64,000 nt of DNA from positions 62,001 through 126,000 of the forward strand of contig NZ_KK069990.1 of NCBI RefSeq assembly GCF_000576425.1, in the 5' to 3' direction. Both the position numbers and the translations under genes were made by a program. The notes under the pieces were generated by a model that searched no databases, was not told the origin of the DNA, and was given only the letters and a program-made list of their open reading frames with translations. Position 1 is the first letter of the stretch. Each line of letters opens with the position of its first letter. This document shows, one piece after another, positions 4,212 through 37,428 of this stretch. The DNA comes from Brachybacterium phenoliresistens. Its GTDB lineage: Bacteria; Actinomycetota; Actinomycetes; Actinomycetales; Dermabacteraceae.

Positions 4212-4318
4212 CCCCGCACCGCCGCCCGCACCGCGCCGCCCCGCCCCCGCGCCGCCCTGCCCCGCCCTGGCCGCCCCCGTATCGCGCCGCCCTGCCCTGC
4301 CCCCGCGCGGACGGCTGT

Positions 4319-4374
4319 CGAGTGCCGGCTGGCGAGCCAAAATCGGCCCATTCTGGTTCGCCAACCGGCACTCG
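4319..4374. repeat. Long imperfect palindrome P1
   Basis: A 56-nt inverted repeat. The outer 20-nt arms, 4319-4338 and 4355-4374, match at 18 of 20 positions, and the inner 16 nt are also partly symmetrical. It is AT-richer than its surroundings, has no U-tract and lies between two plus-strand genes. A tandem repeat follows directly. Unknown element; see findings. Confidence 0.85.
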
Positions 4375-4421
4375 TGCCGTGGCCGGTGCGGGCCGACGTG
4401 CCGTGGCCGGTGCGGGCCGGC
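4374..4421. repeat. 24-bp tandem duplication
   Basis: Two adjacent 24-nt units, 4374-4397 and 4398-4421, differing at one position. They start at the last base of palindrome P1. The rest of the 262-nt gap (4212-4318) is C-rich low-complexity DNA without a gene. Confidence 0.8.
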
Positions 4422-20829: not shown

Positions 20830-21774
20830 ATGCTCCGCACCGCCCTGCGCCCCCGCTTCCTCGGGCTCCTCGCCCTGATGGTCGCGGCGACCCTGGTGTG
20901 CGGACTGCTGGCCACCTGGCAGTGGGACCGGGCGCATCGGGCGATCACCAGCCGATCCGAGCCCACCGATCCGGCCGTGGCCCTCGAGGACGCGCTGCTG
21001 CTGGGCGAGCCCGTCACCAACGAGCGCGCCGGGGATCCGGTGGTGGCCCGCGGCACCTTCGATCCCGCCGAGCAGATCCTCGTGCCCGGGCGCCGCATCG
21101 ACGGCCAGGAGGCCGTGATCGTGGTGAGCGCCCTGCACGTCGTCCAGCCGGACGGCGGCGAGGCCCGCCTGCCCGTGGCGCGCGGCTGGATGCCCGCGGC
21201 CGATGCCACCGGTCCCGACGGCGAGGTCGACCCGGCCCTCGCCCCGGCGGTCCCGGCGGGGGAGATCGAGGTGACCGGGCTGCTCGAGGCGAGCGAGGCC
21301 GCCACCGACGGCGTCTCCGGGCACGTCGCCCAGGAGATCGCGACCCCGCTGCTGGTCAACGAGTGGGGCGAGCCGATGTACTCCGGCTATCTCGCCCAGA
21401 CCTCCGCGGCCGATGGGCTCTCGCCGATGCCCGCCGCGCAGTCCGCCTTCTCCCGCGGACTGGACTGGCAGAACATCGGCTACGCCGCCCAGTGGGTGCT
21501 GTTCGGCGGCTTCTTCCTGTACCTGTGGTGGCGCTCCGTGCGCACCGCGTATCTTGACCAGCGGGCCGATGAGCGCGCCCGCCTCGAGGCGAGCCTGCAG
21601 CCCGCGGACGGCCCGGCCGCCCCGGGTCCGACCGCATCGGCCCCGACCGCATCGGATCCGGCCGCATCGGGCCCGGCCGCATCGGACCCCGATGCCTTGG
21701 CCCCGACCCCTCAGAACCCGAACGACCCGAAGGACGTGACTGGTGTCGACCCCGACTCCGCGACCACTCGATGA
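20830..21774 (+). CDS. SURF1-family cytochrome oxidase assembly protein
   Basis: Helps assemble heme a3-containing cytochrome c oxidase in the membrane. 314 residues with two transmembrane spans at about 12-32 and 214-233 enclosing a periplasm-side domain, the SURF1 layout. Family features include the LATWQWDRAH start of the loop, GRRIDGQE and, before the second span, DWQNIGYAAQWVLFGGFF. The C-terminal 60 residues are a repetitive Ala/Ser/Pro/Asp tail (PTAS, PAAS units). ATG 20830 rather than 20821 is chosen from the -10 position. It overlaps the next gene by 32 nt. Confidence 0.88.
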   Translation: MLRTALRPRFLGLLALMVAATLVCGLLATWQWDRAHRAITSRSEPTDPAVALEDALLLGEPVTNERAGDPVVARGTFDPAEQILVPGRRIDGQEAVIVVSALHVVQPDGGEARLPVARGWMPAADATGPDGEVDPALAPAVPAGEIEVTGLLEASEAATDGVSGHVAQEIATPLLVNEWGEPMYSGYLAQTSAADGLSPMPAAQSAFSRGLDWQNIGYAAQWVLFGGFFLYLWWRSVRTAYLDQRADERARLEASLQPADGPAAPGPTASAPTASDPAASGPAASDPDALAPTPQNPNDPKDVTGVDPDSATTR

Positions 21775-22156
21775 GGTCGCGATCCGCGCCTCGTTCGCCC
21801 GCTACCGCTTCGCGTCCTTCGCCGAGGGCATCGCCCTGCTGGTGCTGGTGTCGATCATGGTGATGCGCTACGGCGTCTACCACGGCGAGGGGCTGTTCAC
21901 CTCGACCTCCCACACCTGGGAGACCATCTCGCAGACCTGGTCGCCCATCCACGGCGTGATCTACATGGTCTACGTGGTCCTGTCCTTCGACCTGTGGATG
22001 CGCATGCGGTGGTCCCTGCCGCGGATGCTGCTGCTCATGCTGTTCGGCGTGGTGCCGGTGCTCTCCTTCTTCGGCGAGCGCTGGACCCACCAGAAGATGG
22101 AGAGCGACCTCCGCCAGCGCCCCACGCTGCAGGACGAGGAGCACCCGCGGCGCTGA
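21743..22156 (+). CDS. DUF3817 family integral membrane protein
   Basis: 137 residues with three hydrophobic spans at about 27-46, 68-86 and 94-110. The RYRFASFAEGIALLVLV start and the central SPIHGVIYMVYVVL match the DUF3817 proteins common in Actinobacteria, whose function is not known. Its GTG lies 32 nt inside the end of the SURF1 gene, which suggests translational coupling. SURF1 and DUF3817 genes sit together in many actinobacteria, so a link to respiratory-membrane biogenesis is possible. Confidence 0.8.
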   Translation: MSTPTPRPLDEVAIRASFARYRFASFAEGIALLVLVSIMVMRYGVYHGEGLFTSTSHTWETISQTWSPIHGVIYMVYVVLSFDLWMRMRWSLPRMLLLMLFGVVPVLSFFGERWTHQKMESDLRQRPTLQDEEHPRR

Positions 22157-22273
22157 GCCGGGACGTCGGGCCCGCCGACCGCGCCGTCGTGCGGCCGCGG
22201 GACCACCGTGCGGCCGCGGGACCAGGGTTCGTGCGGTCGGCGTGTGCTGCGGGAGAGGTCCTGGCGGCGTTCG

Positions 22274-22335
22274 AGAAATTGCACGGTTCTGTACCATGTG
22301 AATCGATTCAGGTGGTACGGAACCGTGCAATTTCT
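22274..22335. repeat. Long palindrome P2
   Basis: Arms of 31 nt with no loop (22274-22304 and 22305-22335), 28 of 31 symmetrical, centred on ATCGAT. Much AT-richer than the genome. It begins AGAAATTGCACGGTTC and ends with the complement. Its right end runs into the first of two direct repeats. Confidence 0.9.
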
Positions 22336-22400
22336 GGAGTGCCCCGCGAAGGCATCCGGGGACGGCGCGATTTCTCGAGTGCCCCGCGCAGGCATCCGGG
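22330..22400. repeat. 31-bp direct repeats with 40-bp period
   Basis: 22330-22360 and 22370-22400 match at 29 of 31 positions. A partial inverted copy of the first 14 nt lies left of P2 at 22266-22279 (12 of 14), so the whole region is a composite of one repeat unit in both orientations. Confidence 0.82.
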
Positions 22401-22577: not shown

Positions 22578-24179
<1,602 letters not shown>

Positions 24180-25336: not shown

Positions 25337-25390
25337 GGAGGTCATTCTCCGTCGCTTGAACGCTCCTTCAAGCGACGGGGAATGACCTCC
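25337..25390. repeat. Long palindrome P3
   Basis: 24-nt arms (25337-25360 and 25367-25390), 23 of 24 symmetrical, with a 6-nt loop CGCTCC. The arms contain TCATTC and GCTTGAA and are AT-richer than flanking DNA. As RNA it would be a near-perfect stem without a U-tract. Confidence 0.9.
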
Positions 25391-37284: not shown

Positions 37285-37336
37285 CTCGCCTCCGGTGACG
37301 ATGACGGGTGACGGTCGGCGGACCGTCACGGGATGC

Positions 37337-37391
37337 GAGCGGGCCCCGTGCCCGGCGACCTGGACGCGGTCGCCGGGCACGGGGCCCGCTC
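37337..37391. terminator. Bidirectional terminator, 24-bp stem
   Basis: Perfect 24-bp stem (37337-37360 with 37368-37391) and a 7-nt loop TGGACGC between convergent genes. A 9-bp hairpin (37308-37316 with 37321-37329) precedes it. Confidence 0.85.
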
Positions 37392-37428
37392 GCTGCGGTC
37401 GCCCGGGCTCGCGTGCCCGGGCGCGACC

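Follow-up and report, generated by a model that had tools for sequence, protein, structure and literature searches.

A dispersed Brachybacterium palindrome family, with one member upstream of guaA, is associated with a predicted Vsr-like nuclease gene

Why does a 62-nt palindrome without a loop stand in the spacer upstream of guaA in Brachybacterium phenoliresistens? The window, by which we mean the whole 64,000-nt stretch of DNA analysed here, places it between the gene for what is, by its sequence, a small membrane protein (21743..22156, + strand; homologues in 37 of the 38 genomes of the genus) and guaA itself (ORF at 22578..24179, + strand), a gene order that is kept in congeners. The palindrome (22274..22335, unstranded, arms AGAAATTGCACGGTTCTGTACCA) pairs at 28 of 31 positions, just as the first-pass annotation had read it, and its arms can be extended to 39 nt each (22266-22304 and 22305-22343) at 85% complementarity. 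Folded as RNA, the extended stretch 22266-22343 reaches -57.1 kcal/mol; its dinucleotide shuffles, 200 in number, give -19.5 +/- 3.0 kcal/mol (z = -12.5), and not one of them folds equally well.

On the left of the palindrome, an unstranded extension (22266..22273) contains GCGTTCG just beyond the arm, and this stretch is common to a second copy of the palindrome in the same genome (G000:C26:13905-13966), which has a small gene on one side and a convergent gene on the other. The arms of these two copies, which we call subfamily A, differ by paired changes (AAATTGCAC/GTGCAATTT vs AAAATGCAG/CTGCATTTT). On the right is a tandem duplication, with copy 1 at 22319..22358 and a decayed copy 2 at 22359..22398, both on the + strand and 85% identical. 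The first reading of these repeats, as two 31-nt units fused to the right side of the palindrome, had the 40-bp period right, but the unit itself is 40 nt long, and copy 1 begins within the right arm and takes it in, so that what was duplicated in tandem is the arm with its flank. The inverted copy of the repeat start that was placed to the left, at 22266, does exist but is weak: 22266-22287 matches 22362-22383 over 22 nt at 77%. The idea of a single unit used in either orientation is right in the sense that one ~21-nt unit makes up each arm. The spacer upstream of guaA also contains a 19-bp tandem repeat in two copies, CGTGCGGCCGCGGGACCAC, at 22188-22225.

Is the palindrome an isolated oddity? 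BLAST and a core pattern, the latter allowing 3 mismatches in congeners, suggested as much, with two loci in this genome and none in the 37 congeners. The core pattern had no matches in 85k genomes and viral contigs, a looser pattern gave 62 stretches over all genomes that were mostly unrelated hairpins by inspection, and a DNA search of plasmids for the palindrome found none. Covariance models overturned this candidate reading. The first, R1, built from the two subfamily A copies and read on both strands, matched 20 of the 38 genomes of the genus at E <= 1, with a common core (NTTCYGNNCC...GGNNCRGAA) and outer arms specific to each genome. Because R1 favours sequences like itself, we place weight on features that it did not select. 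Multiple copies in one genome have common arms unlike the R1 query; among 34 members, 22 of the 23 stem pairs have changed on both sides, with 92% of cells paired; and double-change cells number 194 vs 58 in shuffles, slid and shuffled controls alike falling far short. A second model, R2, scores 62 bits on 22274-22335 and finds members in 30 of the 38 Brachybacterium genomes, up to about 25 copies each. The same model found no members in five sister genera, represented by 9 genomes, and in the order it matched 6 non-Brachybacterium genomes among 396, with few candidates scored per genome. All of these palindrome counts are minima because the search of this very genome missed 4317-4376, which was found by direct search. 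The palindrome upstream of guaA is one copy of a fast-evolving palindrome family scattered through Brachybacterium. The genome-wide search that the first-pass annotation had set as a check finds the unit elsewhere in the genome, and its description of a decayed miniature inverted-repeat element was near the mark.

The members listed number 116, in 94 loci. Family palindromes measure ~45-62 bp, most of them 60-62 or 51 bp, and consist of two ~21-nt arms that are alike inside a genome and different between species, with pairing kept via double changes. Within genomes, conservation is 0.74-0.93 in the arms, 0.52-0.80 in the loops and 0.47-0.62 in the flanks. We considered whether the lengths of 51 vs 61 bp reflect a regular helical spacing of bound protein and rejected this, as members of 89, 56 and 48 bp contradict it. 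In several loci (L134, L138, L148, L152, L149) palindromes often sit inside a local tandem duplication, 100-145 bp in size, or next to short tandem repeats. A number of draft contigs also break off no more than a few hundred bases from a palindrome.

What, then, accompanies the family? Clustering of the neighbouring proteins brought out one family of ~360 aa that recurs between palindromes, the other recurrent neighbour families being judged generic. For this protein, a predicted nuclease, 40 loci of the genus were picked by protein similarity only, blind to palindromes. A palindrome lies within 450 bp at 22 of the 40, on both sides at 13 and on both sides with matching arms at 12, which leaves 28 loci without a detected matching pair. 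Among 298 control genes of similar size from palindrome-rich loci, two-sided matching occurred four times, each time at the nuclease itself; the comparison thus stands at 12 of 40 nuclease genes vs 0 of 294 other genes (p = 2e-12). The similarity between left and right arms of the same gene is 12-20 in 14 of 15 cases, vs a median of 5 between different genes. Arm similarity also tracks nuclease identity (Mantel r = 0.44, p = 5e-5), paralogous nucleases of one genome have unrelated arms, and one genome, G010, holds two nucleases that each carry the arm type of one dispersed subfamily (51 bp and 61 bp). Copy number follows the same line: a clade-1 nuclease is present in 16 of the 17 genomes with at least 10 palindrome matches vs 3 of the 21 others (p = 1e-6), or 13 of 17 vs 3 of 21 under a stricter score-only cut (p = 2e-4), clade 1 being assigned by tree and, for the fragments in G027 and G034, by identity only. 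There are exceptions in both directions, in that G023 has a clade-1 nuclease and no R2 palindromes, while G037 has palindromes and no nuclease match at E <= 1e-8.

The reading that we favour, with a probability of roughly 60%, is that the palindrome is a solo non-autonomous repeat, the family of which is tied to a vertically inherited nuclease gene lying between palindromes of its own. The nuclease would recognise its palindrome, whether in duplex, cruciform or single-strand hairpin form, and cut at or near it, and repair of the cut would copy the palindrome to new sites and keep the arms alike within the genome, in a way similar to that proposed for RAYT transposases and REP elements. Copies would persist chiefly downstream of genes, where insertion is least harmful, and those that persist may act as 3' hairpins. 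Subfamily A, to which 22274-22335 belongs, has few copies, and a search of this genome for its cognate nuclease found none, so the copy upstream of guaA may be a relic; the nuclease on contig C4 has a distantly subfamily-A-like palindrome on one side.

The window holds palindromes of three families, 22274-22335 being joined by 4317-4376 and 25337-25390. The palindrome at 4317..4376 (unstranded; subfamily B, arms CGAGTGCCGGCTGGCGAGCCA, R2 match 41 bits), a further member of the R2 family that the first-pass annotation overlooked, has an arm type that recurs on either flank of the nuclease gene G000:C19:5060-6151. The third-family palindrome at 25337..25390 (unstranded; GGAGGTCATTCTCCGTCGCTTGAA, 24-nt arms, 96%, 6-nt loop) matches the palindromes of locus L303, and its inner arm is shared with the palindromes that enclose the nuclease gene G000:C18:48450-49391. 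At 37335-37393, a GC-rich inverted repeat (26 bp, all of it paired, around a loop of 7 nt) matches no palindrome family here and is perhaps an ordinary terminator.

Placement bears on whether the palindromes are instead hairpins under selection, serving as bidirectional terminators or mRNA 3' stabilisers, with a tie to the nuclease that is regulatory (insulation or autoregulation). Of 109 palindromes, 54 lie in convergent, 52 in tandem and 3 in divergent spacers, the last making up 29% of intergenic bases (divergent deficit p = 8e-13; genes for these counts were called with a simple codon-usage script rather than a standard gene finder), and in tandem spacers the upstream stop codon is the nearer in 38 of 52 (p = 0.001). 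Such placement favours selected hairpins, as do arms that are conserved beside less conserved loops and the fact that G-U mismatches mildly outnumber A-C mismatches on the transcribed strand (59 vs 34, p = 0.012), which hints at an RNA role but could also be produced by mutational strand bias. Terminators, however, require no common arm sequence, let alone arms specific to a species or a nuclease. Judged by eye, many subfamilies appear to have no U-tract, for example at CCGGCACTCG ends; T-runs after the stem are short in some subfamilies and absent in others. Nor would regulatory hairpins be predicted to form matching pairs around a single gene family and no other, and we regard this explanation as rather unlikely.

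The C-terminal domain of the bracketed protein matches PF18741 (MTES_1575) in 24 of 25 members and PF04480 (DUF559) in 16 of 25 at E <= 1; the MTES_1575 scores of 24-31 bits lie under the curated cut-off of 38.2, and one protein scores 21.5 bits for DUF559 vs a cut-off of 20.6. The conserved residues are SPxET, D, EYDGDxHR, W, D, R and GW, with the pattern E232, D265, E276 and H282 in the A4 protein. Some members have degenerate nuclease domains, and the N-terminal ~230 residues are conserved. The DUF559 group presumably shares the fold class of Vsr, the very-short-patch repair endonuclease, and the bracketed protein is weakly predicted to be a Vsr-like nuclease of PD-(D/E)XK type. A PDB sequence search with the nuclease gave no significant match to a Vsr structure, and none of the 25 members matched Y1_Tnp. 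On plasmids the nuclease has one weak match, and in phages and viral contigs none, a near-absence that fits a resident gene rather than a selfish transposon. The locus is syntenic in five species, in which the nuclease shows 46-58% identity vs mostly 65-90% for its neighbours; a nuclease locus with a solo palindrome in G002 was dropped from this comparison, as it is not syntenic. In G017 (L283, 1687-5373) the nuclease gene is split by an IS21-type-like gene pair with palindromes still at both sides, and in G020 (L276, 1646-2764) a clade-1 nuclease is reported with an in-frame stop in a genome that is nearly palindrome-free.

A domain akin to restriction-type PD-(D/E)XK families, fast evolution relative to neighbours and a single arm type for each nuclease would also suit a defence or addiction enzyme, the palindromes being its chromosomal recognition or protection sites. 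Against this, no PADLOC model matched the nuclease convincingly, no recurring methylase or defence partner was seen among the neighbours, and the sites number only ~10-25 per genome and are located 3' of ordinary genes, all of which makes a defence role quite improbable.

Still less probable is that the palindromes are left over from some conventional insertion sequence or MITE family independent of the nuclease, even though their dispersed inverted-repeat structure and the local tandem duplications around several copies would agree with it. No insertion sequence was seen with the same arms, which are shared instead with a nuclease-like gene; arm matches beyond the listed members are at control level or are more palindromes of the same kind; loops are less conserved than arms; and the statistical association with the nuclease gene would be left aside. 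Target-site duplication is likewise absent, flank matches being no longer than in the control. With no such duplication, and no pair of empty and filled sites shown between close strains, the dispersal of palindromes by the nuclease is something that we infer.

Around guaA itself, the adjacency with the membrane-protein gene is conserved in 28 congeners, in all of which the palindrome is absent and the spacer before guaA is -5 to 256 bp, vs 421 bp here. The proposal that the palindrome is a cis-regulatory element of guaA, as a purine-responsive leader or the multi-site regulatory region first suggested, has its position ~240 nt upstream of guaA in its favour and nothing else, and is refuted, with next to no chance of being right, because the gene order is kept in those 28 congeners without the palindrome, while an Rfam search of the window returned tRNA only and nothing in the guaA spacer, and related palindromes adjoin unrelated genes. 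The two outcomes that the first-pass annotation had named as evidence against its own proposal, absence of the unit elsewhere and a purine RNA in relatives, did not appear either.

How does the nuclease-linked repeat compare with known systems? DNA uptake sequences of Neisseria and Pasteurellaceae consist of a species-specific unit, two inverted copies of which stand at the ends of genes and act there as terminators, and in this arrangement they resemble the Brachybacterium palindromes. Single Brachybacterium units, in contrast, are virtually never found outside palindromes, and copy numbers are far lower; an uptake-like role for single units was rejected, as arms outside palindromes in the loci scanned were at control level or proved to be further palindromes. 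The nuclease shares the C-terminal pattern D...EYDGDxHR...W..D..R with MTES_1575 (PF18741) and DUF559 (PF04480) proteins but falls mostly below their curated cut-offs and has the additional conserved N-terminal part of ~230 residues; from Vsr it differs in lacking a significant PDB sequence match and in its genomic context. In the open-access papers searched, no reports tying DUF559 proteins to palindromes were found.

The only comparable pairing of enzyme and palindrome found in the literature searched is that of RAYT and REP. REP elements and BIMEs are dispersed palindromes, mainly in convergent and tandem spacers, and the enzyme gene lies between two of them; enzyme and palindrome co-evolve, the enzyme evolves faster than its neighbours and copy number follows the enzyme (PMC2817692, PMC3733652). 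Compensatory changes and local clusters have also been described for REP elements (Nunvar et al. 2010, PMC2817692; Di Nocera et al. 2013, PMC3733652). The Brachybacterium system shows each of these features: an enzyme gene flanked by two cognate palindromes (12 of 40 loci in the genus, 7 loci outside), co-evolution (Mantel p = 5e-5), copy number tied to the enzyme (16/17 vs 3/21), a preference for convergent and unidirectional spacers (54 and 52, with 3 divergent), compensatory changes with local clusters, and a nuclease that evolves faster than its neighbours. It differs in having a Vsr-like PD-(D/E)XK-type protein rather than a Y1/HUH tyrosine transposase, palindromes of 45-62 bp with two ~21-nt arms, a variable spacer and no GTAG or CGTC tag, and at most about 25 copies detected in a genome vs often more than 100. 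Of 115 members, 12 have GTAG or GGAG, and 25 CGTC, no more than 12 nt from an end, with no fixed position evident among the members listed. Since both the enzyme and the palindrome structure differ, we do not count the family as a member of REP/RAYT, though it would work like one. By word search, Actinobacteria are absent from both papers (PMC2817692 and PMC3733652).

The pairing of predicted nuclease and palindrome recurs in other actinobacterial families. Across the phylum, 49 of 149 genomes contain the nuclease family. Seven of 66 additional loci beyond the genus have palindromes on both flanks, and in all seven the arms match, vs 1 of 287 mismatched left/right pairings at the same threshold; the other 59 loci are without a detected matching pair. 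We give even odds to the broader proposal that such units, each a PD-(D/E)XK-type nuclease with a private palindrome that it copies, exist Actinomycetota-wide and represent a second independent origin of the REP/RAYT lifestyle. If a second, unrelated enzyme has the same signature, resident palindrome-enzyme pairs arise repeatedly. It would also be the first role for the large uncharacterised group of DUF559-like proteins in Actinobacteria, and it would supply a set of nuclease-palindrome pairs for testing the joint change of nuclease and site.

Some further arrays outside the genus are worth recording. In a Coriobacteriaceae MAG (L208, 2780-4570), GGTTCTGTGCC inverted repeats are clustered after a Vsr-like gene, and their core motif is the one also seen in Brachybacterium. 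Bifidobacterium pullorum and a same-order genome (L201, L259) have TTCCGTACCA inverted repeats clustered within a single spacer, with no nuclease found in the stretch examined. In other families of the order (L261, L265), spacers are crowded with the inverted units GGGAGAGTTTTGTACCG and CCAGCGATTCGTGCCGG, which may be additional families of the nuclease-linked palindrome kind.
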